From Candidatus Binatota bacterium (GTDB taxonomy: Bacteria; Desulfobacterota; Binatia; UBA1149), in contig DUBO01000049.1 of assembly GCA_012960245.1 (NCBI GenBank), forward strand, positions 1-64,000: a stretch of DNA of 64,000 nt, given 5' to 3'. Below, piece by piece: positions 13,092-37,202 of the stretch. Made by a program: the position numbers and the translations under genes. Position 1 is the stretch's first letter. Each line of letters begins with the position of its first letter. The notes under the pieces were generated by a model, which saw only the letters and a program-made list of their open reading frames with translations, searched no databases and was not told the DNA's origin.

Positions 13092-14261
13092 ATGGCAATC
13101 CACACCCCACTGTCATCTCCAGGCGCGGCATCTCCAGGTACCGGGCCCGCACCCGGGTCATCAACGCAGCGCTGGGAGTGGCTCGACGCGCTGCGCGGCA
13201 TTGCCATCGTCGCGGTGGTGGCCATGCACGTCACCTGGGCCTGGACGCTGGTGGCACCTCCCGACAGCACTGCCACGGCGTGGCTTGCCTTCGTGCACCT
13301 GCTCGCCAGTTTCGGCGTGCCGCTGTTCCTGCTGGTATCGGCCAGGGCTCTGCTGCAAGGCTACCACGCAGCGCTGGGTGGCTTGCGCGGATGGGTCGCC
13401 TTCGTTGCACGCCGCGCGCAACGACTCCTGCCGGCCTACTTTGCCTGGAGCCTGCTCTCGCTCGCGGCCCACGACACCTCCGTTCTCACGTCGCCCGTCG
13501 ATCTTGCAAGCACCCTGCTGCTGGGAGGGGCCGAAATTCATTTCTACTTTGTGCCGCTCGTCTTCCAGCTCTACCTGCTGTGGCCGATATTCGCCCAGGC
13601 CGGCAGGCTCTCATCGAAGTCAACGACAGCGACCGTGCTTATTACTGTCGGCGCCACGCTGCTGATGATCGCCTGCTGGCGAGTCACCCCGGCGTGGAAT
13701 CACAGCCCACCGCTGCTGCAGTTGTTGCTCAGTTCCTGGCTGGCCTGGCCGCTGCTTGGCTGCACCGTATTGCCACTTCTCGAGCGCCGGCTGCTCGCCG
13801 GCGAGGCTGCTTCAGGACGGCGCGCCGTGGCGGCTGCGGGATTCGCCATCAGCCTGGTCGCCGTCCTGTTGGCGGCTGCGCTGGTAACGTGGCAGTGGCA
13901 CCCGGGCATGACGATAAACTACCTGGGCATAGTGGTAATGGTCTTCAGCCCACTTAACGCTTTATATTTTCTGCTCGCGCTGACCGCCGCCATCCTCCTG
14001 GTCACTTCCGCGCCCCGGGCCGGCTCGGCACTGGCCTGGTTGGGGCGGCGCTCCTACGGAATCTACCTCTGCCACCTGCTCGTGATGGGCTCCCTTGTTT
14101 TCAAGCGTATACTCGGCAATCCAGTGCCCTCGGACTTCGAGTCACCCCTGTGGATCGCGAGCTGGGCGGCCGGCCTGCTGCTGACGCTGGCCTTGAGTGC
14201 GGGCCTGGTCGAAGCCCTGCGTCGCGTCCGCCCGCTGGCCAGGTTCGTGGGATACCAGTGA
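13092..14261 (+). CDS. acyltransferase-3 family membrane protein
   Basis: This integral membrane O-acyltransferase of 389 residues has about ten hydrophobic segments. The N-terminal family signature WLDALRGIAIVAVVAMHVTW carries the conserved Arg and His, and the late SYGIYLCHLLVMG segment is also typical. Such enzymes move acetyl or other acyl groups from cytoplasmic donors to cell-surface sugars or lipids. A GT-C-like membrane protein starts 13 bases downstream, so the two probably form an operon that modifies or builds a surface glycan. Two other members of the family lie at 24347-25402 and 37224-38345. Confidence 0.88.
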   Translation: MAIHTPLSSPGAASPGTGPAPGSSTQRWEWLDALRGIAIVAVVAMHVTWAWTLVAPPDSTATAWLAFVHLLASFGVPLFLLVSARALLQGYHAALGGLRGWVAFVARRAQRLLPAYFAWSLLSLAAHDTSVLTSPVDLASTLLLGGAEIHFYFVPLVFQLYLLWPIFAQAGRLSSKSTTATVLITVGATLLMIACWRVTPAWNHSPPLLQLLLSSWLAWPLLGCTVLPLLERRLLAGEAASGRRAVAAAGFAISLVAVLLAAALVTWQWHPGMTINYLGIVVMVFSPLNALYFLLALTAAILLVTSAPRAGSALAWLGRRSYGIYLCHLLVMGSLVFKRILGNPVPSDFESPLWIASWAAGLLLTLALSAGLVEALRRVRPLARFVGYQ

Positions 14262-14274
14262 GCGTAAACCCGAG

Positions 14275-18126: not shown

Positions 18127-19385
18127 GCGCCATCACCCGGTTCTTTTATCTCCAGCGTTACGTTGCCAGCGTCTTCGACCAGCAGGCCCTGCGACGATGC
18201 CGGCAACAAGCCGCGCGCCCAGGCGGCCGCCTCCTCGCGGCCGGCGAAGATCCTCATGCCCAGCGTAGCTTCAAGCGCCGGGTCAACGCCCTTGCTCACC
18301 AGCGCCAGGCGGACGCCGCGCAGGTCGGTGAGCGCGCGCAGGCGCACGGCCTTGTGATCGCCCAGGCGGTAGCCTCGGTCTCGCACCGTTGCCAAGGCCG
18401 AAGCGTGGTCGGGGCATGCCTTCATCAACTCAACGAAGTGGTCGATACCGGTACCGCCCGCGCAGGTAGCCTCCAGCAGCAGCAGGCCGCCGTCGCTGAC
18501 CGCCGCCTCGGTGTTCTTGATGCCCTTGTCGGCCTGGTAGAGGTCGCGATCGAGCGGCGGCGCCACGCGCGCCACCAGCAGGTCCACGGGCGCGGCCAGC
18601 TGTTGCACGAAAGACGACCTCATGAGCGGCAACAACTCGTGCAGACTGGCCAGCGGATGACCGGCCGACACCCCTACCAACTCACCGTCGAGCAACACCT
18701 GGTTGAGCGCCAGCAGTCGGGCACCGGAATTCTCGAGCGCAGATATGGCAGCGGCCACCCCTTCGTAAACGGGGTTGCCGTCAAGGCGCAGGCCAGCGGC
18801 ATCCGGAGACATCGCGCCCTCGTGGTTGGCGGCGAGCGACTTGAGCGACATGACGCCCACGCTGAGGGTCTTATGGGCTCCGGTGAGGCCGGCAAAGTAG
18901 TGGGGCTCAACGCTGCCACAGGCGAGATACCAGCCGCCCTCGGCCATCCAGCTGTGCAGCTGGTAGTCGCCCACCGGGCTCAGCCTGGCCGTGTCGGCGG
19001 CGTCATGCCAGGCGATTTCTGCAAAGCGATCTGCGTAGGCCCCGAGCACCGCCTGCTCGTGCGCTCGTTTTTCTTCATCGTCGGCGCGGTGGCTTCCGGC
19101 AGCCACCAGTAACCTCAACCCGGGAGTCACCCCGGCGGCATCGAGCAGGAGAAACAACGCGCGCAGAAAACCCGCGCTGTCGGTGGGCCGGTGGCTGTCG
19201 TTGACCAGCACCGTCATCGGCGTGGCTGCCGACGACGACGCGCGAGCAAACTCTACCACGCCCGCACGCTCCAAGGCCTGGGCCTGCTCGCGCCCGGCTA
19301 GCGCCTCGGCTCCGCTGCCGGGTACGAGTCGCTCGAAGGCCACACCCCCGAGTAGATCCGCCCACGCCGTCTCAGCCCCAGCCAT
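18123..19385 (-). CDS. LarA-family nickel-pincer-dependent racemase/epimerase (DUF2088)
   Basis: This 420-residue protein matches the lactate racemase LarA family, which uses a nickel-pincer nucleotide bound to a lysine. Visible counterparts of LarA active-site segments are VLVNDSHRPT, AAGSHRAD, VEPHYFAGLTGAHKTLSVG (with the His and the pincer lysine), NHEGA and YQADKGIKNTE. It lies first in a two-gene operon with a GlcD-like FAD oxidase. No larB, larC or larE genes for the cofactor are in the window. The family includes many 2-hydroxy-acid racemases beyond lactate, so the exact substrate is open. Confidence 0.85.
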   Translation of the reverse strand: MAGAETAWADLLGGVAFERLVPGSGAEALAGREQAQALERAGVVEFARASSSAATPMTVLVNDSHRPTDSAGFLRALFLLLDAAGVTPGLRLLVAAGSHRADDEEKRAHEQAVLGAYADRFAEIAWHDAADTARLSPVGDYQLHSWMAEGGWYLACGSVEPHYFAGLTGAHKTLSVGVMSLKSLAANHEGAMSPDAAGLRLDGNPVYEGVAAAISALENSGARLLALNQVLLDGELVGVSAGHPLASLHELLPLMRSSFVQQLAAPVDLLVARVAPPLDRDLYQADKGIKNTEAAVSDGGLLLLEATCAGGTGIDHFVELMKACPDHASALATVRDRGYRLGDHKAVRLRALTDLRGVRLALVSKGVDPALEATLGMRIFAGREEAAAWARGLLPASSQGLLVEDAGNVTLEIKEPGDGA

Positions 19386-19495: not shown

Positions 19496-21337
19496 ATGGC
19501 GAGATTGTTGTGTATAGCGGTGCTGCTGGTGGCCGCCTGCGCTCCGGAGCCCTGGCCGGGGCCGCCGGCCCTGCGCTTGAGCCAGCTGGGCCAGGCAGAC
19601 AGCCCCCCGCTCTACCGCGCGCTCGACAGCAACACCCGGCCCCTGCTGGGTCGTGAAACCGGACCGCTGCCACCCACGGTCACCGTGCACGCTACCCTCG
19701 AGCTCGAAGCCCGCGGTCGCTCCCAGCTCGAGTTTGCCTGTGGCGTCCCGACCAACAGCTCGGCGCCGCCAGTCACCTTCAGGGTATCCGCGGCCAGCAG
19801 CGGTAAAACCAGAACGCTGTTTGAAACCACCCTCTCTCCCGCCACCGACAGCGAGCGCTGGCACGAGTTCAGCGTCGAGCTGGATCTCGACCATCCCACT
19901 ACCCTGCAGTTTGTCACCGTGCCGGGGCAATCGGATTCGCCGCCGAGCGCGGCGTGGTTCAGCGACCCGATACTGCAAGCGCTCAACCCCTCGCGAGCAA
20001 CAGAACGCAAGCGCCTTCCCAACATCGTGCTGGTTTCGCTCGACACGCTGAGAGCCGACCACCTGTCGGTCTACGGCTACACACGCGATACCTCGCCCAA
20101 CATGAAAGCCATGTTCGACGAGCAGGGCCTGGTGGTCGAAAACTGCTTCGCCCCCGAGGTCACTACCCTCGATTCCCACGCCACCATGATGTCGGGCCTG
20201 TACCCGGACAGCGCCGTGCAGCCCGGCCTGCTGGGCATACACCGCGGCGTGACTATGCTGGCCGAGCTGCTGGCCGACGAGGGCTACCGCACGGCAGCCT
20301 TTACCGAAAACGCCTTCGTGACGGCCAGGCTGGGATTTCGCCGCGGCTTCGAGGTCTATTCCGAGAACAGCGGAATAGAAGCAAAGGGAATTGGGCGCCA
20401 CGTCGCCAACGCGGTGGGCTTCGTGCGCAAGACCTTCGACCGCGGCATAGCCTGGGTCGAAGAACACGCCGACCGGCCGATGTTTGTTTTCCTGCACACC
20501 TACCAGGTGCACTCCCCATACACGCCCGCACCCCGGTGGGCGGCACTGTTCCCGTCGCCCGAGGGCGCGTCGCAGGCACGACGCGACATGGACGCCTACG
20601 ACGCCGAGATTGCCTACACCGACAACGAGGTTGCGCGCCTGCTCAAGGCCATCGACCGAGCACTGCCCGCCGACGACACTATTCTTATTGTCCTGTCCGA
20701 CCATGGTGAGGAGTTCGGCGAGCACGGTCGCCGCTACCACGGTGGCACCCTGGCCAACGAGACACTGCGCGTGCCGCTGATGCTGCGCGCCCCGGGGCGC
20801 CTTCCGGCTGGCCAGAGAAGAACCGGCCCCGTGGGTCTCGTAGACCTCGTGCCCACACTGCTCGAGCTGCTCGACATCGAGGAGCCCTACCCGCTGCAGG
20901 GTCGCTCGGTTCTCGCCCACCTTCGCCACGACCAGGCGCTTCCGGTAACACCCCTTTACTCGGTGTCAGATTCGCCATTCACCATGAACTACAAGGGCGT
21001 CGACAAGAGTTGGCAACCGCCGGCCCGGGCCGTGACCCTGTGGCCCGACCGCCTGCTGAGCGAAAAAACGGACGAAGGCCGGCGCTACTGGTTATTCGAC
21101 CTGTCGACCGACCCCGGCCAGACCAAGGACCTGTACGAGTTCGCCGACCAGGGGCCACAGCTCAAGCGCCTGCTCGAGCAGTGGCCAGCCGTGGCAGCCG
21201 CTCGCAAGAAAGAGCTCTCTCTGTCGCTGCAGTCGCGCGCGACTGCGCATCGCCCGCCAGAATCAAACGCAAACGGATTGGGCGAAGACAAGATACGTAA
21301 GCTCAAGGCCCTGGGCTACCTGGAACCTGGAGAGTAA
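19496..21337 (+). CDS. sulfatase-fold lipoprotein, copy 1, with Thr at the formylglycine position
   Basis: This 613-residue lipoprotein has VAAC at residues 12-15. Residues about 40-165 form a beta-rich N-terminal domain (RWHEFSVELD, TTLQFVTV, AWFSDPIL). The alkaline-phosphatase-superfamily domain starts at LPNIVLVSLDTLRADHL and includes the metal motif LSDHGEEFGEHG (Asp402, His403). The usual Cys of CxPxR is replaced: the equivalent segment is TTLDSH with Thr224, so formylglycine cannot form there. Thr is the nucleophile in EptA and LtaS phosphotransferases, so a phospho- or sulfo-transferase, or phosphodiesterase, is possible. It ends with KLKALGYLEPGE. It is the first of a tandem pair. Confidence 0.87.
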   Translation: MARLLCIAVLLVAACAPEPWPGPPALRLSQLGQADSPPLYRALDSNTRPLLGRETGPLPPTVTVHATLELEARGRSQLEFACGVPTNSSAPPVTFRVSAASSGKTRTLFETTLSPATDSERWHEFSVELDLDHPTTLQFVTVPGQSDSPPSAAWFSDPILQALNPSRATERKRLPNIVLVSLDTLRADHLSVYGYTRDTSPNMKAMFDEQGLVVENCFAPEVTTLDSHATMMSGLYPDSAVQPGLLGIHRGVTMLAELLADEGYRTAAFTENAFVTARLGFRRGFEVYSENSGIEAKGIGRHVANAVGFVRKTFDRGIAWVEEHADRPMFVFLHTYQVHSPYTPAPRWAALFPSPEGASQARRDMDAYDAEIAYTDNEVARLLKAIDRALPADDTILIVLSDHGEEFGEHGRRYHGGTLANETLRVPLMLRAPGRLPAGQRRTGPVGLVDLVPTLLELLDIEEPYPLQGRSVLAHLRHDQALPVTPLYSVSDSPFTMNYKGVDKSWQPPARAVTLWPDRLLSEKTDEGRRYWLFDLSTDPGQTKDLYEFADQGPQLKRLLEQWPAVAAARKKELSLSLQSRATAHRPPESNANGLGEDKIRKLKALGYLEPGE

Positions 21338-21479: not shown

Positions 21480-23351
21480 ATGGCAAGATGGTTATGTATC
21501 CTGGCGGTACTGCTGAGCGCCTGCACCCAGGACCCATGGGACGGCCAGCCGGCCATACGGCTGGGCGGGATCGCGAGGCAGGCCGCTGTCAACCGGCAGG
21601 AAAGCAGCTCCCGGCACCGAAGCGACCACGAAACGCTCTACCGGTCACTTGACCGCAGCTACCGTCCCCTGCTGGGCTACAAGGCCGGCCCGCTCCCGCC
21701 CGTCGTCACCGTGCACGCCACCTTCGAGCTGAAAGCCTGGGGAAAGTCCGTATTAGAGTTCGCCTACGGCATGCCCACGAACGACATCGCCCCTGCCGTA
21801 ACCTTTCGGGTTTCAGCCTCCAGCGACAACCGTGTGAAAACCTTGCTCGAAACCTCGCTGGACCCGGCAGTAGACGGCGGGCGCTGGCACGAGTTCTCCG
21901 TAGAGCTGGACCTGGACCAGGCCACGACGCTGCAGTTCGTCAGCATTCCGGATAAGTCGCGCACCGCACCCGCGGAAGCCTGGTTCAGTGACCCCGTGTT
22001 GCAGCCTCTCAACCCCGAGCGCACCGAGATGGGTGGCCGCCTTCCCAACGTGATTCTGATATCGCTGGATACGCTGCGGGCCGACCACCTGTCGGCTTAC
22101 GGCTACCAGCGCAACACGTCGCCGAACATGAAGGCCCTGTTCGACAGCGAGGGCCTGGTTGTTGAAAACTGCTTCGCGCCTGAGGTCACCACGCTCGACT
22201 CGCACGCCTCTATGATGTCGGGGCTGTACCCGGCCACAGCGGTGGGGCCCGGAATCGAAGGCATTCACAATGGCGTGGTAATGCTGGCCGAACTCATGGC
22301 GGCGGCGGGATACCGCACGGCAGCCTTCACCGAGAACGCTTTTGTCGCGGGAGAACTAGGTTTCCGGCGGGGCTTCGAGGCCTACAACGAAAACCCAGCT
22401 ATCGAAGCAAAGGGGTTCGCCCGAATAGCCGCCAACTCGACGGGATTCGCGCGCGAGACTTTCGACCGCGGGCTGACTTGGATAGAAGACCACGCCGATC
22501 AACCCCTGTTCGTGTTCCTCCACACCTACCAGGTGCACGCGCCCTACACTCCGCCGCCAGAGTGGGCAGCCTTGTTTCCATCGCCCGACGGGGCCTCGCA
22601 GGCGAGACTGGACATGGATGCCTACGACGCCGAGATAGCGTACACCGATAGCGAGGTGGGCAGGCTGGTTAAAAGCCTCGACCGACTGCTGCCCGCAAGC
22701 GATACGATACTGATCGTGCTGTCGGACCACGGCGAAGAGTTCGGTGAGCACGGTCGGCGAGGTCACGGTGGAACCCTGGCCAATGAAGTGCTCAGGGTCC
22801 CTCTTATGCTGCGCGCACCCGGCCGCCTGCCTGCCGGTCAGAGAAGAACCGGCCCGGTGGGCCTCGTAGACCTCGTGCCCACACTGCTCGAGCTGCTGGA
22901 GCTCGAGCAGCCCTATCCCTTGCAGGGTCGCTCGGTGCTTGGGCACCTGGTAAACGGCTCGCCCCTGCCGGTCGTACCGCTCTTTGCCGAGGCTGGCACT
23001 CCCTTCTGCATGAACTATCAGGGTGTGGACAAGAGCTGGAGTCCGACCTCCTGGGCGATCACCTTGTGGCCCGATCGACTCGTCAGTGAGCGGGCAGGCG
23101 TCGACCTTCCCGAAAACACGCGTCGCTACTCCATGTTCGACCTGGTAGCCGATCCGCACGAAGCGACCGACGTTTACGGTTTCTCCGACCACGGACCGCT
23201 GTTGAAACGCATGCTCGACGCATGGCCTGCACAAGCGGCCGAACGGGGGGAAAGTCTTGCCCGGCCCGTCGACTTCGTGTCAACTCCAGAGTTGGCCGCA
23301 GAAAAAATACGCAAGCTCAGGGCGCTGGGCTACCTGGAGCCTGGAGAGTAA
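21480..23351 (+). CDS. sulfatase-fold lipoprotein, copy 2, with Thr at the formylglycine position
   Basis: This is a paralogue of the gene just upstream, 623 residues and very similar along its whole length. The lipobox is LSAC with Cys15. The beta-rich N-terminal domain (about 55-175) and the sulfatase-fold domain (from LPNVILISLDTLRADHL, Asp197) match copy 1. The FGly-equivalent segment is TTLDSHAS with Thr238, and the metal site LSDHGEEFGEHGRRGHGG is kept. Both genes have a gcagaagaaag motif upstream and share 3' flanking bases, so the whole unit was duplicated. It probably acts in the periplasm or on the outer surface. The substrate is unknown. Confidence 0.87.
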   Translation: MARWLCILAVLLSACTQDPWDGQPAIRLGGIARQAAVNRQESSSRHRSDHETLYRSLDRSYRPLLGYKAGPLPPVVTVHATFELKAWGKSVLEFAYGMPTNDIAPAVTFRVSASSDNRVKTLLETSLDPAVDGGRWHEFSVELDLDQATTLQFVSIPDKSRTAPAEAWFSDPVLQPLNPERTEMGGRLPNVILISLDTLRADHLSAYGYQRNTSPNMKALFDSEGLVVENCFAPEVTTLDSHASMMSGLYPATAVGPGIEGIHNGVVMLAELMAAAGYRTAAFTENAFVAGELGFRRGFEAYNENPAIEAKGFARIAANSTGFARETFDRGLTWIEDHADQPLFVFLHTYQVHAPYTPPPEWAALFPSPDGASQARLDMDAYDAEIAYTDSEVGRLVKSLDRLLPASDTILIVLSDHGEEFGEHGRRGHGGTLANEVLRVPLMLRAPGRLPAGQRRTGPVGLVDLVPTLLELLELEQPYPLQGRSVLGHLVNGSPLPVVPLFAEAGTPFCMNYQGVDKSWSPTSWAITLWPDRLVSERAGVDLPENTRRYSMFDLVADPHEATDVYGFSDHGPLLKRMLDAWPAQAAERGESLARPVDFVSTPELAAEKIRKLRALGYLEPGE

Positions 23352-25506: not shown

Positions 25507-26793
25507 TCAGGGCATCGCATTCTTACGCATGCGATTCTTGATCAGCCCTTCTTTGAAGTTCTCGAGCGCGGCTTTCGCCCGCGCAGCCTCTTCACGTTCG
25601 GCAATGAGTAACGGCGTCGTCGCACGAAAGTAGTTTTTTACGGCCTGGACTTTCTCAGCGCTACGCTGGTCCGGCCGTTTCGAAATCAGATAGGCCATGC
25701 CGCCGCCCAACGACGTTGCGGCTGCTCCTTCGCGTTCGATCGTTGCACGCTGCTCGCGCTCCCATTTCGCTTGCGCTTCGAGAAGAGCCGGCGTGTCCTT
25801 TTTGACCAGGCGGTTAGCGCGCAACGATTTCCATACCAGCTTTTGTCCTTCCTCATAACCTCGAAGGACGAGCAGGTTGGTAAAGTTCTTCTCATTCCTC
25901 CCTTCGAACCTTTGCAAAAGTCCCTTGGTATAGACCTCGCGTAGCGGTCGAATTCCGCCACCACCCATCCCCAGATCGTAGAACAAGAAATCATGGGATC
26001 GCAGCAGATCGAGAAATCCACTCGCATCGGTGCCGAGTCCGCTCAATCCATGTGGCCAATACTCGACCGCCATCACGATGTCGTCGTTTGCCGCTATGAC
26101 TTCCTGCATGCCCTCGAGGATGACGCCTTCAGCACCCTGTGTGTCTATCTTCACGAAATTCACGGCACCGTCGTAGTCCACGAAGTAATCGTCCAGTTTT
26201 ACCGCTTCGACATCGATCGCTCGGCGTTCTTCATTACCTTCGTAGATTTGATGATCGCCTTTGTTTTTCTCGGACAGGAAGAGCTGGATGCTTCCCTTCT
26301 CGTTCGATACGGCTTTCTGTTCGAGAGTGACGTTCGTGATGCCGTTCAGGGCGACGTTGCGTTCAAGAATCGAGAACGCGATCGGATCCGGTTCGAAAGC
26401 GTAGACATGGCCCGTATCGCCAACGAGTCGGGACGCGACCAGGGTGTAGTATCCGACGTTCGCCCCGATATCGACGAAGACGTCCCCCGGCCTGACAAAA
26501 CGAGACACCCAGTGGGTCTCGTTGGGTTCCCATACCTTCCCCGCGAGTATTCGGTAGGTAATCACCGAATCGTTCGGGTGTAGAAACATCTTCAGCCCCG
26601 GGATGTTCGGAACTTCCAGGTCGACTGCTTTTCCGTGGCGTGCGAACTCCAGTCGGGTGCTATGCTCGAGTTCAAGCAGCGTCTGGTTGCCCGCCAGCCA
26701 TGCACTCCGTGTGATGAACGCCGCTCCGGCGAGAAGCAAGAGAAGCGCAAGAATCCCACCGGATATCCGGCGGCGTATGGTCGTCGAGCTCAC
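25507..26793 (-). CDS. FkbM-family methyltransferase-like protein with N-terminal signal anchor
   Basis: From the GTG at 26793 the protein has 428 residues; an earlier in-frame start at 26862 would add 23. A basic TIRRRIS segment precedes a hydrophobic helix (GGILALLLLLAGAAFI). By the positive-inside rule the rest faces the periplasm. The FkbM domain (about residues 75-300) shows FVDIGANVGYYTLVASRLVG, VYAFEPDP and NFVKIDTQGAEGVILEG, so SAM-site motifs are intact. A charged helical tail follows. FkbM enzymes normally O-methylate sugars in the cytoplasm, so an outward-facing domain is odd. It is near three lipoprotein FkbM genes. Confidence 0.82.
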   Translation of the reverse strand: MSSTTIRRRISGGILALLLLLAGAAFITRSAWLAGNQTLLELEHSTRLEFARHGKAVDLEVPNIPGLKMFLHPNDSVITYRILAGKVWEPNETHWVSRFVRPGDVFVDIGANVGYYTLVASRLVGDTGHVYAFEPDPIAFSILERNVALNGITNVTLEQKAVSNEKGSIQLFLSEKNKGDHQIYEGNEERRAIDVEAVKLDDYFVDYDGAVNFVKIDTQGAEGVILEGMQEVIAANDDIVMAVEYWPHGLSGLGTDASGFLDLLRSHDFLFYDLGMGGGGIRPLREVYTKGLLQRFEGRNEKNFTNLLVLRGYEEGQKLVWKSLRANRLVKKDTPALLEAQAKWEREQRATIEREGAAATSLGGGMAYLISKRPDQRSAEKVQAVKNYFRATTPLLIAEREEAARAKAALENFKEGLIKNRMRKNAMP

Positions 26794-26954
26794 GTTCCGC
26801 TTCTCTTCGGGTGCCCTGAAGCAGGCTCGCCCCACTGAACTGCGTTCGAACCGGAAACGCAACGCAGTTTTACATCTATATCGAGTAACAGCGAAACCGA
26901 CGCTGCTTGGCCGTCACCTACGGCAGGGCCCGCAAGGCAGGGCCCCGGGACCCG

Positions 26955-27785
26955 TTATTCAATCAGGAGGGCCGGGTTGTCAGCAGGCGTATAGTACCAG
27001 TTGATGTGGTCATGCTTGAGGTAGCGATCAATACGCTTGTAGCCACGCTCTTCGAACCAGGCGTTTATCCTGGGGCGGTCGGGCCTATAGGCCTCTATGC
27101 AGACCAGTTCGGGCTGGTACTTCTGGATATCGAACGCCGCCAACGCTGTCATCTGGAAGCCCTCTATGTCCATTGACATGAAGTCAATTTTCTCAATCCC
27201 GTTGTCTTCGAGCAGCTTGTCGATCGTTATGGTACGAACCTTGATCTCCGTGTAATTGTAGGGTTTGTCACGACCGCCGGGCTTTTCGACCATCTCTTTT
27301 TTTGCCGACGACACTTCCCACCAGGCCGCTCGATAGAAAGTATCCTCCGTGTCGGAGTGATCGGAGATCAGCAGGTTTAAAAACCTAGTGCCGGGTCGAT
27401 GGCTGGCCCAGTGCTTCGCGTACTCAGCCACTGCGTCGACGCCAATCCCCGTCCACCCCAGGTGCTTGTCAAGATAAAACGTCGTGCTGTTGCGCTGCGG
27501 AAAGGCGCAGCCCACGTCCAGGAAGATACCGTCGCGACGGTCCTGAAAGAAGTCACGAATGCAGAGTTCCTCGTCAAACTGCGAGTAAAGCTTCTTCGCA
27601 GTATTGACGATGTCCCGCCTTGCGGGCTTGGTGGCTTCCGCTGCAACCGACTCGGCTGCCGACTCTTCAACTGCCACGGGTTCTCCAACCGCGGAGGGAG
27701 CGGGCACTTCCTCTTTGCAGCCTGAACCAGCAACAACGATCATCAATGACACCGCTAATGATGTAACGGAAAAAACCTTCCCCAT
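26955..27785 (-). CDS. FkbM-family methyltransferase-like lipoprotein
   Basis: The ATG at 27785 follows an AGGAG site and gives 276 residues. The N-terminus is a signal peptide ending in VAGSGC (Cys23), an acceptable lipobox, followed by an Ala/Glu/Val-rich linker to about residue 55. The FkbM domain contains CIRDFFQDRRDGIFLDVGCA, the STTFYLDKHLGWTGIGVDA segment and IDFMSMDIEGFQMTALAAF. The first glycine loop reads DVGCAFPQRN rather than DVGANDG. Codon use is less GC-rich than in the glycan genes. An IS3-type fragment lies about 60 bases upstream. A lipoprotein methyltransferase has no obvious SAM supply, so a non-catalytic role is possible. Confidence 0.82.
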   Translation of the reverse strand: MGKVFSVTSLAVSLMIVVAGSGCKEEVPAPSAVGEPVAVEESAAESVAAEATKPARRDIVNTAKKLYSQFDEELCIRDFFQDRRDGIFLDVGCAFPQRNSTTFYLDKHLGWTGIGVDAVAEYAKHWASHRPGTRFLNLLISDHSDTEDTFYRAAWWEVSSAKKEMVEKPGGRDKPYNYTEIKVRTITIDKLLEDNGIEKIDFMSMDIEGFQMTALAAFDIQKYQPELVCIEAYRPDRPRINAWFEERGYKRIDRYLKHDHINWYYTPADNPALLIE

Positions 27786-27846
27786 CTGCAATCTCCTGTA
27801 GCCCGATATTTGTAACACTTCCACGCGACCGCCGACAGAAGTGACG

Positions 27847-28258
27847 ATGTCGTTCATCGACGACTACCGCGGCCAATATGGGGTCGAGCCGATCTGCCGG
27901 CAGTTGCCGATTGCCCCATCGATACACAACGAGCGCAAGGCGCGAGGGATTGATCCTTCGCGACTGCCTGTGCGTGCGCATCGAGATACAAAGCTGCGCG
28001 AGGAGATCCGCCGCGCCTGGAAAGCAACCTTCCGGGTGTACGGCGTGCGCAAGGTATGGCAACAGCTCAGCCGCGAAGAGATCGGAGTGGCACGCTGTAC
28101 ACGGTGGAGGGATTGATGCGCGAGATGGGCCTGGAATGGGCCGATGCGTCGCAGGCACGGCCGGCCGACCTGGTGAAGCGCGACTTCACGGCGACCCGCT
28201 CCAATCAGTTGGGGGTCACCGACCTGACTTGCGTGGCCGCATGGCGGGGGTATGCCTT
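27847..28258 (+). mobile_element. Decayed IS3-family transposase (OrfB) fragment with frameshift
   Basis: The translation FIDDYRGQYGVEPICRQLPI in one frame continues with IRRAWKATFRVYGVRKVWQQ, the N-terminal part of IS3-family OrfB. At about 28096-28104 the frame shifts; TACAC in place of TAC suggests a two-base insertion. The other frame continues as TVEGLMREMGLEWADASQ and LVKRDFTATRSNQLGVTDLT, which reaches the first catalytic Asp. Similarity ends near 28258, so most of the DDE domain is lost. No terminal inverted repeats were found. The element is inactive. Confidence 0.85.
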
Positions 28259-28332
28259 ACACGGCCATTGGCAAAGTAATCTTGCGGGGGGAGCAGCCTT
28301 GGCCGCGCGGGCGCGTAACCAGTCACCCTCTA

Positions 28333-29163
28333 TCACCGTTCGATCCACTTCTTTTCTATCTCAAAGGCATCGACCTTCAATGTTTTCTTCTCTTCTGGGT
28401 AGCTTTTCTCGTCTCCCAGTACGCGTACGAGTGGGCGCGCCATCTTGACCGGCGAATTGTCTTCTATGCCGAAGAGATCGTAATACTGCTTGTCTACGAA
28501 GAAGATGTTGGGCCCAGTACGCATGACATGAATCAATTCATAGTCCTTTGTCTTTGCCAGGTTGTACATCGATTGTAAGCTAGCTCCGACGTAGTTAGTC
28601 AGATCCCAATAGTTGAATGGGTGGAAATCTATCACTGCCAGCTCGGGCGGAGGGAAGGAGGCGTTGGACTCGATCATGACCACCTTCGGTCGGAACGACT
28701 GGATCGCCCGCCAGACGTAGTAGTCATTACTGTCGATGTCGATGACGAGAAAATCTAAGTCCTTCGGAACCCCGGCTTCCTCGAAGAGAATTTCGATATT
28801 GCCCGGGAAAATCCACGCTTCCAACGTCGTGACCTTCGGGTTGTCCTCATATTCTTTCGCTAGTAATTTCGCGCGGTAGGGGTGCCCCTCGATCTGGAAA
28901 CTTGCCCAGCCGTCTAAGATCAGTTTGCGGGTGTTGCTGATCGTCACACCGTCGTACGCGCCGAACTCGACCGCGTACTTGTTAGTGGGTTTGATGATCT
29001 CGAAGATCTGTTCGATCACTCCGTCTTCCCCGTGTTGCGAAAAAACCTTGCTTTCGTAGTCGTCAAGATTGATTCGCTCGATGGTCGGAGCCGTGCAGGC
29101 CAGCGTAAGGGCCAACATCGGGAGAATGGCCAGGTGAATCTTTTGTGTGGAGATCTTTTTCAT
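28333..29163 (-). CDS. divergent FkbM-like lipoprotein
   Basis: This 276-residue protein has a KK-type signal peptide ending in LTLAC (Cys23). The domain has the pattern of the FkbM relatives: ESKVFSQHGEDGVIEQIFEI, YAVEFGAYDGVTISNTRKLI, a GWASFQIEG acidic strand and LDFLVIDIDSNDYYVWRAI. The usual DIEG motif is DIDSN here, and FPGNIEILFEEAGVP is inserted before it. G+C is clearly low, for example 26 of 60 bases at 28561-28620. The ATG follows the stop of a small coding remnant by one base. Function outside the cytoplasm is unknown. Confidence 0.8.
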   Translation of the reverse strand: MKKISTQKIHLAILPMLALTLACTAPTIERINLDDYESKVFSQHGEDGVIEQIFEIIKPTNKYAVEFGAYDGVTISNTRKLILDGWASFQIEGHPYRAKLLAKEYEDNPKVTTLEAWIFPGNIEILFEEAGVPKDLDFLVIDIDSNDYYVWRAIQSFRPKVVMIESNASFPPPELAVIDFHPFNYWDLTNYVGASLQSMYNLAKTKDYELIHVMRTGPNIFFVDKQYYDLFGIEDNSPVKMARPLVRVLGDEKSYPEEKKTLKVDAFEIEKKWIER

Positions 29164-29164
29164 C

Positions 29165-29346
29165 TTAGAGGACTCTCTTAAGGTATCCAGCTGGGTTGTG
29201 AGTCATCACCAGGCGTTCGCGCGACACATCGATCACAATGCTCTCGTTGTCTTTCATAAACGTTGTTCCGGCAGGGAGCACTCGTAGTGCATTTACAATC
29301 TCCTGTAAGACAGACCCTGCAACCTTCCCACGGGCCCAGCCACGAC
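29165..29346 (-). pseudogene. Short coding remnant upstream of the FkbM-like lipoprotein
   Basis: In one frame this stretch reads LQEIVNALRVLPAGTTFMKD and then ESIVIDVSRERLVMTHNPAG, ending in YLKRVL and TAA. The composition looks like a real protein C-terminus. Its reading frame runs on unbroken into the APC permease gene in a different frame, so the true 5' end is missing. An internal ATG would give 30 residues. It may be the tail of a deleted gene, or a tiny leader coupled to the lipoprotein gene, whose ATG is one base after this stop. I do not recognise the family. Confidence 0.35.
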
Positions 29347-30627
29347 TCAAGCAGCTCTTCGTTTCGCAAAAAAGTAAAGCGGCAGTCCTACCAGCGCGGT
29401 AAGCAGCCCCAGCCCCGCCTGCATCGGTTCCCTCACCGCCATGAAACCAGCAATAAGCAGGGTGGACGCTATGAATATACCCGGCACCCAGGGGAAACCC
29501 GGTATGGGAACCCTCTCGGCACCCTCGCGCAGGCGGATCTTCAACAATGCCCCCACCGTAGCGGCGGCCGACAAGCCCAGGGTGAAGCCTATGTAGCCCA
29601 GCAACTGGGCCAGGCCGGTGGACCATAGAACGACCAACGCGAGGCCGGTCTGAAGCGCGACCGCGGCGCCCGGCGACTTGGCCCCTGCCTTGAAGAACGC
29701 CGGAAACAAGCCGTCGTCTGCCATCTTCGCGTAGACCCTGGGACCAGCCATGATCATCGAAGAAATCGAAGTAAAGAGGGCAAGTACGACGATGGCCGAC
29801 ACCGCGCGTTTGAGAGGCGCGCCGCCGAGCGCTTCGGCAGCGACCGCGCCGATCTCGGCCCTGCCGGCCAACATCTCGATGGGTGCCGAGTAAACAAAAA
29901 TGGCGTTGAGCCCGAGGTAAACCACCGTAACCGTGGCGGTGGCGAGGATAAGCGAACGCTGAATCGTCTTCTCCGGGTCTGATACTTCCTCGGCAATGTA
30001 AACTGCTGCGTTCCATCCCGAGTACGCGAAAGATATCCACACAAGGGTAACAGCGAAAGCTCCAAGCTCAAAGGCGGGAACCGGCGCCAGCGCTGGCGGT
30101 AGATCGGGAAGCGCGAACGCTCCGTATACCAGGAAGCCGCCGATCACTATCATCTTCAGACCAACCGCGATGTTCTGCAGCAGGACTCCATCTCGCACGC
30201 GTAAGCCGTGCATCAGGCCCGCTGCCAGTATGGCGATGGTGCCTATCCATTCGGGGCGCACGGTGACACCGAAGGAGTAGGCCACGTAGGCCTGCAGGCC
30301 CAGCGCCGCTGCTGCAATGGGGGCGGTAAAACCGGCGAGCAGGGACACCCAGCCGGCCATGAAACCCGCGGCGGGGTGCACGGCTCTCGATAGAAAGAGA
30401 TACTCGCCACCCGACTCGGGCATGCGGCGCACGAGCGCACCGTAGGAAAGCGCGCCGAACATGGCCAGCACTCCGCCCACTACCCAGGCCACCAGCACGA
30501 TGTTGGGATCACCGAGATCGGCCAACGCGAAACCCGAAGTAGTGAACACGCCGGCCCCTATCATGTTGCCCATGACCACGGCCGCGGCACTGGTCATGCC
30601 AAGTCTTTTAACTGGGGAATGAGACAT
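29347..30627 (-). CDS. APC-superfamily amino acid permease
   Basis: This 426-residue transporter starts at the ATG at 30627 (a longer frame to 30819 adds non-hydrophobic, unlikely sequence). It has twelve hydrophobic segments. The first helix motif VVMGNMIGAGVFTTSGFAL with GAG, and the FAYSGWNAAVYIAEEVSDP segment of helix 6, are typical of the APC/LAT families. It probably imports or exchanges an amino acid across the inner membrane. High GC content sets it apart from the neighbouring FkbM genes, so it may be part of the original chromosome. Confidence 0.9.
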   Translation of the reverse strand: MSHSPVKRLGMTSAAAVVMGNMIGAGVFTTSGFALADLGDPNIVLVAWVVGGVLAMFGALSYGALVRRMPESGGEYLFLSRAVHPAAGFMAGWVSLLAGFTAPIAAAALGLQAYVAYSFGVTVRPEWIGTIAILAAGLMHGLRVRDGVLLQNIAVGLKMIVIGGFLVYGAFALPDLPPALAPVPAFELGAFAVTLVWISFAYSGWNAAVYIAEEVSDPEKTIQRSLILATATVTVVYLGLNAIFVYSAPIEMLAGRAEIGAVAAEALGGAPLKRAVSAIVVLALFTSISSMIMAGPRVYAKMADDGLFPAFFKAGAKSPGAAVALQTGLALVVLWSTGLAQLLGYIGFTLGLSAAATVGALLKIRLREGAERVPIPGFPWVPGIFIASTLLIAGFMAVREPMQAGLGLLTALVGLPLYFFAKRRAA

Positions 30628-31064
30628 CTCTGTTCGGCTGAAAGGGTTCCAAGAAAGCCGGCAAGCGGGCCAGATCAACCAGAACCCACACCGGCACCCA
30701 CAGTGTAGCACTTCGCCGGTCGCCAAGTGTAAATTATTAAGGGAGTGGCAGACAATACGCCGCCCCTGTCTATGCAGGTCGCCAGCACCAACGGATACCC
30801 GGCGGCACAGTGCGGTCAAAAATGATCAGGTCGCGTGCTCCCGAGAACTAATACTGCTTCAACACTCAGGCTACAGGTGACGAGCGCGGCAAGGCTTGAC
30901 ATCGGGCACAGCCGTTCAAAACGCGCCGGTCAGGACGAAGGCTATAGTGATCACCCTCGCGGGGAACAGAGCCTCGTGGGATGCCTCGGCTGCCCCACAT
31001 GGGATCCACCTCTTAATGTTCCATGCCAGGGTATGATCAGCCGTGCCCGTTCCAGCGGACGCAT
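30628..31064. other. 437-base stretch without a recognisable gene
   Basis: Between the APC permease start and the stop of the FkbM-like lipoprotein I found no convincing reading frame and no clear terminator. A frame on the plus strand (30835-31104) is open but has no start signal or family features and overlaps the lipoprotein gene. The part around 30880-31020 has several short GC-rich complementary segments, so a structured RNA cannot be excluded, but no known RNA family was recognised. Confidence 0.4.
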
Positions 31065-31781
31065 TCAGCGGGCTGGCCGGAAAAACAGGTTAACAGGATC
31101 GTAGGCCTCGTACTGGTTAATTACTTCGTAATCATTGATTTCGAAGTAACCCAGTACCTCTTCCCTGACATCAATCCCGGCAGAAACACATACAAGCCCA
31201 GGCTTGTACTTGCCGATGCTGAATCCGTCGAGAACCTTTCTCTCCACGCCCTCAACGTCAACAGAGAGAAAATCTATCTCGGATACATTGTTGCCCGCCA
31301 GCAGGTCATCCAGTGTTATCGTCTCAACCTCGATCTCAGTCAGTTCATCAATTGCCTCCGCGAATCGTGGGAACAACTTCACGTGTTCTTTAGAATGGGA
31401 AGAGACCGGCCCCGCAAGAAAGAAAGGCTGTTTCAGGTTGGACTGGTCTGACACGAAGAAGCTGAAAAACTTGGTATTGGGGCGGTTCTTTTCATAGCCC
31501 GCTCTGTACTGCTCCTGTGCATCCACAGCGATTCCCGACCAGCCAAGATGTTCTTCCAAGTAGTAAGTGGTGCTCGCGGCCTTCCATTGGTAGGAGCCGA
31601 TGTCGACGAAAAAACCGTCAGCAGCGTCTTGGAAGAAATGTCGTACAATAACCTCTTCGTTATTTTGGGAATACAGAGATTCCTGTTCCAAGATAGTATC
31701 GTCGACGGGGATATCCCTGTTGCAAGCCGCGGCAGCGGCAAAAAACACGAGTAGTAGTGAAACCGTTACCCATCTAGCCAT
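31065..31781 (-). CDS. FkbM-family methyltransferase-like lipoprotein
   Basis: From the ATG at 31781 this is a 238-residue lipoprotein with a hydrophobic signal ending in AAAAAC (Cys20). The domain begins with SLYSQNNEEVIVRHFFQDAA, then GFFVDIGSYQWKAASTTYYL, EEHLGWSGIAVDAQEQY and EIDFLSVDVEGVERKVLDGF, which is an FkbM core with the DVEG motif kept. The first loop lacks the normal GANDG. It is most like the lipoprotein at 26955-27785 (both have STTxYLxxHLGWxGIxVDA). An IS3-type fragment lies 180 bases upstream. The same question arises: how it would get SAM outside the cytoplasm. Confidence 0.82.
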   Translation of the reverse strand: MARWVTVSLLLVFFAAAAACNRDIPVDDTILEQESLYSQNNEEVIVRHFFQDAADGFFVDIGSYQWKAASTTYYLEEHLGWSGIAVDAQEQYRAGYEKNRPNTKFFSFFVSDQSNLKQPFFLAGPVSSHSKEHVKLFPRFAEAIDELTEIEVETITLDDLLAGNNVSEIDFLSVDVEGVERKVLDGFSIGKYKPGLVCVSAGIDVREEVLGYFEINDYEVINQYEAYDPVNLFFRPAR

Positions 31782-32229: not shown

Positions 32230-34113
32230 TTGGGCTCTGTAAGACGCGACGCTACAAAAAACGGCAAAACCCCGGCTTCACCCTTTTGTACCGTGCCACT
32301 GCTACTGGTAGCGAGCCTTACTATGTCAGCCTGTGGTTCCCCGGACAGCCTGCGCACTTACCGGGTCGGCACGGCTATCGGCAACGAACTCTCCGGTCGT
32401 GAGTCGAGGCCCGTGCTGGATGAAAAAGAACTCGCCGTGCTCGCTATCGACGTTGAGGCCGGCTGCCGACTTCGTGTCCCCTTGGCTAACCAGGGCAAAA
32501 CGGCAACGGCAATCTATAGCGTATTCGGTCTGTACCCGGATGACAAAGAGATCCTGCTCGCCCAGCTGGAGACCGGGACAACCTGGGGTTGGCGCGAACT
32601 GGAGTTCACGCTGCCCAGCCCCGCCCCTGAAACGCTCAGCCTGCGCTTGAGCGGCGACGCCGTTTCGCAGGCGCTGTGGGGCCAACCGCTGGCGACATGC
32701 TCCGCAGCGACCGACTCCCTGTTCGATACGACCACCCCGGCGACCAACGTCATACTGGTCTCGCTCGACACGCTCAGGGCCGACCGGCTCGGGGTATACG
32801 GCAACCGCCGCAACCTGACTCCCAACCTCGACCGCCTGGCCCATGAGGGAGCGCTGTTCGAGCAGGTCTGGTCACCATTTCCCAATACGCTCGCCGCCCA
32901 CGCGAGCCTGTTTACCGGCCTGACTCCAAGTCAGCACGGCTTGCTGCCCGGCGAGGACGCCCGCATACCGCAAAACACCTCCACCCTGGCTCGGGCTTTC
33001 GCGGAACAGGGCTACCGCACAGTAGCGTTCACCGAAAATGCGTTCGTGAGCAGCGCCTATGGTTTTGACGTTGGCTTCGACAGCTATGACAATGGCCCGG
33101 AGGTCACCGAAAACGACCTCTTCCCCGGGGCAGGATCGGTCACCTTCGGTAAAGCAGCCAACTGGCTGAAGCAACGTCCGCCCGGGCCCTTCTTTATGTT
33201 CGTGCACACCTACGAAGTGCACGCGCCCTACGCTCCCGCCCGCGACGAACGAACCCAGCTGTTATTGCTCCGCCTGTCGCCAAGCTATGAAGGTAGGTTC
33301 GAGCAGGCCTACCATCCACTGGTCGAACTTGCGTACAACGCAGGAAAGATCGCTCTGGCTCCCAGTGACTTGACAAGAATCGAAGCTCTTTACGACGCCG
33401 AGACCTGGACCGTGGACCGCCAGCTTGGCGACTTCCTGGCTAAGCTGGCCGAGCTGGGCTTGGCCGACTCCACCCTGCTGGTCATAACATCGGACCACGG
33501 CGACGAGTTCAGCGAGCACGGCTATATGGGCCACGGTGAGACCCTGTACACCCAGGCCCTGCAGGTACCACTGATCTTCAGGCTGCCCGGACGCGTGCCG
33601 GCCGGCCTGCGCGTGTCGGTGCCGGTGGGCCTGGCCGACGCGGGGCCGACCGTAGCCGCGCTGGCCGGCATACCACCACCGTTCTATAACGCGCCGGCCC
33701 GCGATCTCACGCCTTTGATAGAAAATCCGCTGGTCGAAACAAGTGCCTCAGCCAACCCGGTCTTCAGCGAACTGAGCAAAAATATGAACTCCTGCAAAGG
33801 GCTAGCCCCCGGAGAGAGCGGTATCGCAGCTCTGGAATTTATGAACTGCAATTACGACGGCCTGGCCCTCAGGGACAAACGCTACACCTACATAGAGTCG
33901 GCGGCCACCGGTGCGAGGCAGCTCTTTGACCGCAGGGCGGACCCCGGCGAGCTTCGCGATATAGCCGCATCGCAAGCCGATCTCGTGGCGGCTTACCACG
34001 AAGCGGTCAACGGCTACCGAAAACGTAACGAAGAGCACGAAACGAAGACCGCCCCCACGAGCATAGACCCGATAACCCACGAAAAGCTCCGCGCCCTCGG
34101 ATATATGCAGTAG
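32230..34113 (+). CDS. sulfatase-fold lipoprotein, divergent third copy
   Basis: The TTG start at 32230 follows an AGGAGGA site and gives 627 residues. The lipobox is SAC with Cys35 after a 35-residue signal. A beta-rich N-terminal domain (about 40-165) is followed by the sulfatase-fold domain (NVILVSLDTLRADRL, Asp180). The FGly-equivalent segment is NTLAAHASLFTG with Thr220, and the second metal motif is TSDHGDEFSEHGYMGHG. It ends in HEKLRALGYMQ. It is more distant from the two tandem copies than they are from each other. A GT-C gene with HEAT repeats begins 32 bases downstream, so the two may be co-transcribed. Confidence 0.87.
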   Translation: MGSVRRDATKNGKTPASPFCTVPLLLVASLTMSACGSPDSLRTYRVGTAIGNELSGRESRPVLDEKELAVLAIDVEAGCRLRVPLANQGKTATAIYSVFGLYPDDKEILLAQLETGTTWGWRELEFTLPSPAPETLSLRLSGDAVSQALWGQPLATCSAATDSLFDTTTPATNVILVSLDTLRADRLGVYGNRRNLTPNLDRLAHEGALFEQVWSPFPNTLAAHASLFTGLTPSQHGLLPGEDARIPQNTSTLARAFAEQGYRTVAFTENAFVSSAYGFDVGFDSYDNGPEVTENDLFPGAGSVTFGKAANWLKQRPPGPFFMFVHTYEVHAPYAPARDERTQLLLLRLSPSYEGRFEQAYHPLVELAYNAGKIALAPSDLTRIEALYDAETWTVDRQLGDFLAKLAELGLADSTLLVITSDHGDEFSEHGYMGHGETLYTQALQVPLIFRLPGRVPAGLRVSVPVGLADAGPTVAALAGIPPPFYNAPARDLTPLIENPLVETSASANPVFSELSKNMNSCKGLAPGESGIAALEFMNCNYDGLALRDKRYTYIESAATGARQLFDRRADPGELRDIAASQADLVAAYHEAVNGYRKRNEEHETKTAPTSIDPITHEKLRALGYMQ

Positions 34114-34145: not shown

Positions 34146-37100
34146 ATGACCAGCCGTCCATACCGCATGGCCATACTGAGCTTCGCGCTCGGCCTCCTGT
34201 ACTTCGGATCCTTCGTAGACTACGGCATCAACTTTGCCGACGAGGGCGCGTTGGTATCGCAGATGTCGCGCTTTGCCGCCGGCGACCGTCTCTACCAGGA
34301 TTTCCACATAGGCTACACGCCCGGCGTTTATCTGCTGCACGGCGCCATCATGAAAGCCTCGGGACACTCCCTGCTGGCCGGGCGCTGGGTGTTGGCCACC
34401 ACGCTGGCCGTCACCATGGCGCTGCTTTACCTGCTGGGCTGGCAGCTCACCCGTCGACGCTGGCTGTCGCTGGCCGCGCCCCTGCTCTACCTCGCCTCCG
34501 TACCCATCCACCCGGGCCAGTTTGCCTCCTCCAACATCCCCTACCCGGTGTGGTACAACGTGCCGCTGTGGCTGGGGGGTATGCTCGCCCTGCTCAAGTT
34601 CGGCGAGGGCAAGGGCCTGCGCTGGCTGCTGCTGGCGGGCGTGCTGGCGGGTATCAACTTTGCCTTCAAGCCCAACGTGGGTCTGTTTCAACTGGCGGCC
34701 GCGTCGCTGGTGACGCTGGCCGTACTGCCCATGCAGGGCGCACCCGATGCCGTTGGATGGAAGGTCAGGCTCAACCGCCTGCTGTGGTGGGGCTGGTGGC
34801 TGGCCATACTGCTGGGGCTGGCGGTGGTGTTCGGCGGCAGGGCCGGGTTGCGCGAGTTCTGGATACTACTCGCACCGGCTGCCGTGGCCTCACTGCTGGT
34901 AGCGTGGAGGGCCGCAGTGGTGCCCGTGCCCGAGGGAAAAATACCGTCGCTGGTGATGTGCGCTGCCACCCTCGCGCTGTCTTTCCTGGCCGTCAACGCA
35001 CCGTGGATGATTTACTACTACCGCATGCTGGGCCCGCAGCGTTTTCTCGAACGGGCCTTGTTCTTCGGGGCTGACTTCGAAAAGTTCTACTTCATCTCGC
35101 ACCCCCCGGTACTGCTGGGTGCCCTGGCAGGCCTGGGCCTGGTGATACTCGCGCGCGCGTTGCCACGCCGGGTTGCACGCCGGGTCATGCCTACCGACAT
35201 GTTCCTGCTGCTGGCCGCCGCGCTGGCAAGTGTTGCCGGTGGCCTGTTGCTGGCCGGCCGACCAATGCCCGAGGGTTTCTACAACGCGGTCATGTCGGTA
35301 GTGGAGCCGTCGGCCTTTGTAGCCGTCATCCTGGCCCACTGGCTGGGCTTGTGGGTGTGGGCCCGCAGCATAGGCACCGACGACGACTGTCGGGCGCCCT
35401 CGCTCAACGCCACCGTGCTTGTCACCGGCGCCGTCTTTCTCTACATGCAGATCTACCCGAGGACCGACTTCATGCACTGGGTTACTTCGGCCCCGGTGTC
35501 GCTGCTGCTCGGGGTGGTGCTGCTGGAGGGCCTGGCCAGGCGCTGGGAGCAAGGCCGCGGCAGCCGGCTGCCCGCGGCGACCATAACCACGCTGATTTTT
35601 GCGCCGCTGTTCGCGATCGGGGCTATAAGGGCCGGCCACTCGCTGGGCGCTATCGTTGACCTGGACGGCGGCCTGCCCTCGCGACCGCAAGCCGTGCGGC
35701 TGGTTTCAGAGCGCGCGCCCATATGGAACAACGTGGGCGCAGCCGCCACCTACGGCGACCTGTCGGCCCTGGTAAAGTTCGTCAGGAACAACACCACCGA
35801 AGACGAACGTATCTTTACCTTTCCGTCACTCGACGTGGTCTCGTTCCTGGCCGGTCGCCCGAATACAACCCGCCACGGCTATTTCTTTCCCGGCTGGCCC
35901 GGCCGCGAGGTAGAGGCCGAGGTCATCTCCGACCTCGACGCGGCGCCACCGAGATTCGTCGTCGTCTACCACTGGCACCCATTGTTCTTCTCGGAGGCGG
36001 CCCTCTACTACTTCCAATTGCAGCACTACATCGAAAGCAACTACCGTCCTTACGCCCGCTTCGGCCGCTACGTTGTGCTTACCCACAAGACCCTGGGGCC
36101 GGCGGGAGATGGCCCCGACCTGCCGCGCAGCAGCATAGAAGCCGCCCTGCCCGACCAACTCGACCAGGAACTCAAGGGCCGCCTGACCGACCCCGACGCC
36201 GCGGTGCGACTGGAGGCGGTGAAACAGCTTGAGGGTTTTCACCTGGGCAGCGACTACCCGCCGCTGAGCAAGCTGCTCGGTGACCCCGACCGGGCCGTGA
36301 GAAACCAGGTGGTGTGGGCCTACAGGTACGCCCGCGACAAAACGGTCGCGCGTAATCTTGTAGCCGCAGTGGCCGGGGGGTTGTTGTCGCCCCGGGAGAA
36401 CATCCTGGCGCTGCGCAGGATAGGGGGAGGCGTGGCCGCCGACTCTGCGCCGGATCTGCTGAGCCTCGTGGACTCAGCAGACGCAGCCATCGCGCTGCCG
36501 GCGCAAAGAGTACTGTCCGCCATGGCTGCGCGCCACGTCAACGAGTCCTTCTGGTTCGGCCGCCTGCAAACCGAAAACGACAGCGAGCTGCAGGATCTCA
36601 GCACGCATCAACTCGCTCGCTCCTTGCAGTGGTTGAACCGCCCCGAAACTAAACGCCCGCTGCTCTACTACGCGATCACGCTGGGAGCAGAGGCACTGGA
36701 GCACTCGTCGCCAGGCCGGAAGATCGTTTGCAGGCCATCGCTCGCGGCGATCTCCCGCGACGGCAACCTCACCCTGCGCATGCTCGCGCTGCGCACGATG
36801 GCGCGCTACGGCTGCGCAAATAAGTCCGACCTCCTGAACACCGCTTATAACCTGATGATCTTCGACGACAGGATGGTCATGCGCGTGGCCGAAGACCTGC
36901 TGAAAGAAACTCTCGAAGCCGACCAATTGCTCGCCGACATGATACATCGCGGCGAGGGGCCGAGGCTGGAGAGCTCAATCTGGCTTGCCTCGGTTTACGG
37001 TGGACCCCGCTCAGCAGCCGAACTGGTGCCGATGTCGAGTCACGCAGATCCCGCCATTCGACTGGCCGCCGCCTGGGCGCTGGGGCGAACCGGAAACGCC

Positions 37101-37202
37101 GGCCACGCAGATCACCTGGCGCTTGCCCAACTGGACTCGGACACCGACGTGAGCGAAATGGCGGGGCGGGCCCTGGCCATGCTGCGACGGCGCCTGGACT
37201 GA
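34146..37202 (+). CDS. GT-C-type membrane glycosyltransferase fused to HEAT-like repeats
   Basis: This 1018-residue protein has a membrane domain (about 1-490) with the first-loop motif FADEGALVSQMSRFAAGDRL and YQDFHIGYTPGVY. The acidic DE pair is the expected catalytic site of GT-C enzymes that use polyprenyl-phosphate sugars. An extracytoplasmic domain follows to about 665. From about residue 668 to the end there are alpha-helical HEAT-like repeats (LTDPDAAVRLEAVKQLEGF, LGDPDRAVRNQVVWAYRYA, HADPAIRLAAAWALGRTG). The same layout, with a shorter tail, is at 43336-45771. The role of the repeats is probably protein binding. It follows the third sulfatase gene. Confidence 0.8.
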   Translation: MTSRPYRMAILSFALGLLYFGSFVDYGINFADEGALVSQMSRFAAGDRLYQDFHIGYTPGVYLLHGAIMKASGHSLLAGRWVLATTLAVTMALLYLLGWQLTRRRWLSLAAPLLYLASVPIHPGQFASSNIPYPVWYNVPLWLGGMLALLKFGEGKGLRWLLLAGVLAGINFAFKPNVGLFQLAAASLVTLAVLPMQGAPDAVGWKVRLNRLLWWGWWLAILLGLAVVFGGRAGLREFWILLAPAAVASLLVAWRAAVVPVPEGKIPSLVMCAATLALSFLAVNAPWMIYYYRMLGPQRFLERALFFGADFEKFYFISHPPVLLGALAGLGLVILARALPRRVARRVMPTDMFLLLAAALASVAGGLLLAGRPMPEGFYNAVMSVVEPSAFVAVILAHWLGLWVWARSIGTDDDCRAPSLNATVLVTGAVFLYMQIYPRTDFMHWVTSAPVSLLLGVVLLEGLARRWEQGRGSRLPAATITTLIFAPLFAIGAIRAGHSLGAIVDLDGGLPSRPQAVRLVSERAPIWNNVGAAATYGDLSALVKFVRNNTTEDERIFTFPSLDVVSFLAGRPNTTRHGYFFPGWPGREVEAEVISDLDAAPPRFVVVYHWHPLFFSEAALYYFQLQHYIESNYRPYARFGRYVVLTHKTLGPAGDGPDLPRSSIEAALPDQLDQELKGRLTDPDAAVRLEAVKQLEGFHLGSDYPPLSKLLGDPDRAVRNQVVWAYRYARDKTVARNLVAAVAGGLLSPRENILALRRIGGGVAADSAPDLLSLVDSADAAIALPAQRVLSAMAARHVNESFWFGRLQTENDSELQDLSTHQLARSLQWLNRPETKRPLLYYAITLGAEALEHSSPGRKIVCRPSLAAISRDGNLTLRMLALRTMARYGCANKSDLLNTAYNLMIFDDRMVMRVAEDLLKETLEADQLLADMIHRGEGPRLESSIWLASVYGGPRSAAELVPMSSHADPAIRLAAAWALGRTGNAGHADHLALAQLDSDTDVSEMAGRALAMLRRRLD

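Follow-up and report, generated by a model that had tools for sequence, protein, structure and literature searches.

Gene content of the locus

The window analysed here is a 64,000-nucleotide stretch (bases 1-64000 of the 68,848-base contig C49) from a MAG of 2.8 Mb and 96% completeness, whose relatives in the same genus include UBP10_UBA1149 and NIOZ-UU50, with an order-level relative named Candidatus Binatia. The initial annotation had placed four FkbM-like genes between positions 25507 and 31781; their coordinates proved right, all four genes (termed G1 to G4) lying on the minus strand, with a permease gene between the last two:

25507..26793, minus strand: G1, signal-anchored protein with a canonical FkbM domain, GTG start, 428 aa (PF05050, 6.5e-19; TIGR01444, 5.5e-33)
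26704..26766, minus strand: hydrophobic signal anchor of G1, approximately residues 10-30 (from the translation; anchor or signal peptide in homologues)
26955..27785, minus strand: G2, FkbM-domain lipoprotein, predicted lipid-bearing Cys23, 276 aa (PF05050, 7.7e-19)
27036..27518, minus strand: FkbM (PF05050) domain of G2, with the DVG motif I, acidic D117 and DIEG at 206-209 (from profile-match coordinates and invariant residues)
28333..29163, minus strand: G3, FkbM-related lipoprotein, predicted lipid-bearing Cys23, 276 aa (profile-profile match to the G2 family)
29347..30627, minus strand: LAT-type APC amino-acid permease between G3 and G4, 426 aa (PF13520, 1.1e-39)
31065..31781, minus strand: G4, FkbM-domain lipoprotein, predicted lipid-bearing Cys20, 238 aa (PF05050, 5.3e-16; TIGR01444, 1.1e-11)

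G4 is a paralogue of G2 (41% identity), and an AGGAG ribosome-binding site is found 5' of the G2 ATG. The remnant of an IS3-family transposase lies between G2 and G3, on the plus strand (27841-28116, perhaps reaching 28280; NF033516, E = 6e-12). An assembly or contamination artefact was ruled out by the presence of homologues in many independent MAGs.

FkbM domains and fold

The FkbM fold initially assigned to all four proteins stands by PF05050 for G1, G2 and G4 (69.1, 68.9 and 59.6 bits, respectively, against a cut-off of 22.7), but G3 falls under that cut-off (14.7 bits, E = 0.035) and was tied to the fold through profile-profile comparison with the G2 family, at 97% probability. With TIGR01444, G1 (114.4 bits) and G4 (45.4 bits) score above the NCBIfam cut-off of 37.7 and G2 (29.9 bits) below it, and the search with this profile returned no match for G3. 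A profile search of the genome for PF05050 detected G1, G2 and G4, and no further gene.

The AF2 model of G2 (pLDDT 95, pTM 0.91) presents a class-I Rossmann methyltransferase fold. Structural searches with this model gave COMT and other SAM/SAH-binding methyltransferases as top PDB matches and FkbM proteins as top viral matches. The model of G3, built from three sequences, reached a pLDDT of 52, too low to be usable. Searches of plasmids and phages yielded only ordinary FkbM proteins of about 25% identity, and a role as a defence system was discarded, the only match being a generic methyltransferase one to mads_2, in G1.

Export signals

G1 has three arginines followed by a hydrophobic stretch that constitutes a signal anchor, with the catalytic domain predicted outside. 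In G2, G3 and G4 an n-region, a hydrophobic h-region and a lipobox cysteine are present by sequence and kept in orthologues, the signals ending in the lipobox-like strings VVAGSG|C, ALTLA|C and AAAAA|C, respectively. Export was judged from comparative sequence evidence, for which G2-type homologues were collected at 50 loci of Binatota, Myxococcota, Acidobacteriota, Aminicenantes, Omnitrophota and Bacteroidota. In the first five of these groups almost all the G2/G4 homologues have lipoprotein, signal-peptidase-I or anchor N-termini, and the type of signal switches among these three between relatives and orthologues. The G2-type exceptions are three Bacteroidota proteins that have no signal, plus L107, L116, L121 and L125, which are fragments or weak cases. 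The Bacteroidota proteins (L109, L110 and L112) belong to the same FkbM subfamily, and the single ORF of L109 encodes a sulfotransferase-like domain upstream of the FkbM domain.

N-terminal hydropathy was above threshold in 89% of 44 members of the G2 family versus 15% of 27 FkbM controls of the class (p = 2e-8), a contrast drawn from one simple measure with one threshold; two of the controls above it (L233 and L240) are exported homologues of G1. The G1 homologues form one exported clade (support 99/95) apart from the cytoplasmic members of the class, and an anchor or signal peptide is also found in those of L056, L072, L073, L074 and L240. Homologues of G3 in other Binatota genomes are exported too. 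Near such homologues lie two similar lipoprotein-like genes, L062:9389-11779, a penicillin amidase by Pfam, and L174:16258-18654, judged by its N-terminal sequence only.

That these are ordinary cytoplasmic FkbM enzymes with misplaced start codons is extremely improbable, since the internal GTG codons of G2 downstream of its signal are outweighed by the dozens of homologues carrying signals, by the G2 ORF of the same-genus orthologues L005/L006, which opens at the signal-peptide ATG directly after a stop codon and so forces the start near the signal, and by the purifying selection acting on the G2 signal region (dN/dS of 0.19 over 24 codons). Wrong start codons, one of the outcomes that the initial annotation had named as fatal to its claim, were thereby rejected, and its assertion that every one of the four genes bears an export signal, one anchor and three of lipoprotein type, holds, with the signals recurring in homologues. 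On this comparative evidence G1 to G4 are genuine exported FkbM-fold proteins, G1 predicted to be anchored in the inner membrane and G2 to G4 to be lipoproteins. As homologues of G1, of the G2 type and of G3 are exported alike, no fewer than three lineages of FkbM proteins have acquired export. The four proteins are not a single family, as had been annotated, and represent three separately exported lineages (G1; G2 with G4; G3).

Conservation of the cofactor site

The acidic strand and the DxEG-like motif, described at first as still recognisable in most copies, are better kept than this wording implied. Across 42 G2-type domains, D46 and G48 of motif I, the acidic D73 at the end of strand 2, and D162 and E164 of the DxE motif are invariant, and the motifs of G1 are canonical (DIGANVGYYT and FEPDP). 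Motif I of G2 and G4 has another residue in place of its second glycine (DVGCAFP), a loss common to cytoplasmic relatives such as L021 (DVGAHHP). Judged from these residues, the cofactor site is not decayed in the G2-type proteins or in G1. Decay into pseudo-enzymes was considered for both and found unsupported, given their conserved sites and dN/dS values of 0.15-0.45.

Linkage to a LAT-type permease

The recurrent linkage of a rare LAT-type permease to exported FkbM genes is a new observation of this work, absent from the initial annotation. The window permease belongs to PF13520 (E = 1.1e-39), whose cut-off is also exceeded by the linked permeases of other genomes; two PF13520 genes are found in the window genome and 2-5 in its relatives. 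Its PDB matches are xCT, LAT2 and related proteins, and by sequence it is closest to the LAT-type exchangers (SLC7/TIGR00911-like, including xCT, LAT2 and prokaryotic relatives). However, its score against TIGR00911 (L-type transporter; 4e-46, 157 bits) is under the cut-off of 701.8, which makes it LAT-like only, and it differs from those exchangers in belonging to a clade of its own, with a distinctive signature and with linkage to exported FkbM genes.

Of the 16 Binatota genomes examined, 10 have a PF13520 permease directly beside an exported FkbM gene, compared to a chance expectation of about 0.05 genomes (a rough figure, calculated with around one gene per kb and ancestry ignored), and no permease was found within approximately 1.5 kb of some 27 control FkbM loci of the class. 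The same adjacency occurs in two Myxococcota loci that were noticed through the linkage itself and therefore stand outside any fair rate. Exported FkbM genes without a permease neighbour are also many, including those of the remaining 6 of the 16 Binatota genomes and of most Myxococcota loci. Where linkage exists, gene order varies: G3, permease and G2 follow each other on one strand in L173 (genome G103), with a 4 bp overlap between G3 and the permease; the order is permease, G2, G1 in L056; and the permease and G2 genes overlap in L058 and L059.

In a phylogenetic tree, in which the window permease appears as L195, all the linked permeases except three group in a single clade (support 100/100) that spans Binatota and Myxococcota, shows its own SGGEY...HP signature and has every one of its members linked. 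The three outside it are the permeases of L058 and L059, from a second APC lineage (linked in genomes G003 and G007), and a second APC gene a few kb off in L074. As the L058 and L059 permeases come from another lineage, the coupling arose at least twice. Such recurrent coupling to a LAT-type permease favours the supply of a cofactor or of an amino acid.

A surrounding glycan locus

Glycosyltransferases, a flippase, OafA-like acyltransferases, GT-C enzymes and phosphatase-superfamily proteins are encoded around the FkbM genes, in a neighbourhood partly kept in other families of the order. Three sulfatase-fold genes are found among them:

19496-21337, plus strand: sulfatase-fold lipoprotein-like gene (PF00884; conserved in L056-L059)
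21480-23351, plus strand: sulfatase-fold lipoprotein-like gene (PF00884; conserved in L056-L059)
32230..34113, plus strand: alkaline-phosphatase-superfamily ("sulfatase-fold") protein, a recurrent neighbour (PF00884, 1.7e-42)

The three reach the PF00884 score itself, but inspection by eye revealed TTLDSH, TTLDSH and NTLAAH instead of the C/S-x-P/A-x-R formylglycine motif. As threonine takes the position of the sulfatase Cys/Ser, these proteins are probably alkaline-phosphatase-superfamily transferases or hydrolases and not classical sulfatases; moreover, their vicinity is less telling because the genome carries 20 PF00884 genes. EptA and LtaS are glycan modifiers of the alkaline-phosphatase superfamily. 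Together with the OafA-type acyltransferases they decorate surface polymers in the periplasm with donors supplied across the membrane, and genes of these kinds adjoin the FkbM cluster; however, they transfer acyl or phospho groups instead of methyl groups, and the routes of their donors are known.

Other genes in these neighbourhoods were also recorded. A PMT_2-like GT-C protein that carries HEAT repeats at its C-terminus (34146-37202) is conserved beside the cluster in the genus. A 783-aa protein without Pfam match (14197-16548) is conserved in the genus (97%) and has distant homologues near the FkbM loci L065 and L072, and a pair formed by an FAD-linked oxidase and a LarA-like protein (16537-19385) is also present in L058, from another family of the order. 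Near exported FkbM genes of two genomes, L059:17380-18999 and L072:9722-11740 encode membrane proteins that contain a spermidine-synthase domain, itself a SAM-type fold.

Possible functions of the exported FkbM proteins

SAM-dependent methylation in bacteria is regarded as cytoplasmic, SAM being made in that compartment. The G1-G4 group shares with the FkbM methyltransferases (TIGR01444/PF05050; FkbM of FK506 biosynthesis) the domain, the fold, motif I, the acidic strand 2 and DxE(G), but the known members are cytoplasmic, whereas the window proteins are exported, fall in three lineages and are often coupled to a permease. A eukaryotic parallel is found in lumenal FkbM-domain proteins such as Star of Drosophila, which likewise has a type II anchored FkbM-like domain on the non-cytoplasmic side, but acts in cargo handling or processing and is not known to have a permease partner.

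The reading that we favour, put forward as a fair way from certain, is that G1 to G4 would be SAM-dependent O-methyltransferases acting either in the periplasm or on the surface of the cell. Their target would probably be the surface glycan built by the surrounding locus, with its GT-C glycosyltransferases, flippase, OafA-like acyltransferases and phosphatase-superfamily transferases. The linked permease would work as an exchanger, bringing SAM out and retrieving SAH; LATs recognise L-alpha-amino acids, a class to which both molecules belong. SAM as the ligand, methyl transfer, the glycan substrate and SAM/SAH as the transported pair are all inferred here. Methylation outside the cytoplasm is the parsimonious reading because intact sites, three exported lineages in the same organisms and a recurrent exchanger-type coupling coincide. 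Against it stand the replaced glycine in G2 and G4, the use of LATs as exchangers of ordinary amino acids, and the many loci without an adjoining permease; in addition, we know of no LAT-type permease that exports SAM. The broader version, in which exported FkbM methyltransferases and a specialised LAT-type SAM/SAH exchanger would form a dedicated system spread through Binatota and Myxococcota, seems somewhat doubtful.

It is rather unlikely, though deserving of attention, that the exported proteins keep a nucleoside/amino-acid pocket for another ligand or reaction outside the cell, with the permease handling that ligand or its product by import or scavenging. The normal confinement of SAM to the cytoplasm, the non-canonical motif I of G2 and G4 and the LAT-like amino-acid transporter type of the permease would all agree with this, but the strict conservation of D, G, the acidic D and DxE, along with the unmodified, canonical SAM site of G1, argue for the original cofactor. 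We regard as improbable that the proteins are active methyltransferases feeding on SAM leaked or released by lysed cells, with no dedicated supply and a permease serving another step: members lacking a permease neighbour are indeed common, yet the adjacency is far above chance and was acquired in two permease lineages. Quite improbable as well is that, by analogy with the heavy (SLC3) and light (SLC7) chains of animals, the exported proteins would be ectodomain partners of the permease that use the enzyme fold as a scaffold. Such a pairing might be suggested by xCT and LAT light chains being the best solved relatives of the permease, by the type II anchor topology of G1 and by the adjacent, in some cases overlapping, genes; however, a scaffold has no need of invariant catalytic-type residues, most copies are lipoproteins or soluble, and many FkbM genes lack the neighbour.

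The statement in the initial annotation that no lipoprotein FkbM set had been described agrees with our literature search, which covered few subscription papers and returned neither an exported FkbM set nor a bacterial SAM exporter for periplasmic methylation; to our knowledge, no bacterial SAM exporter exists in the record. The exported FkbM proteins and the permease of UBP10/Binatota suggest an undescribed route of methylation outside the cytoplasm, which as a system would be novel should the supply of the cofactor be confirmed. In any case, with three FkbM lineages placed outside with intact sites and a co-inherited permease clade, extracytoplasmic methylation becomes a testable proposition.
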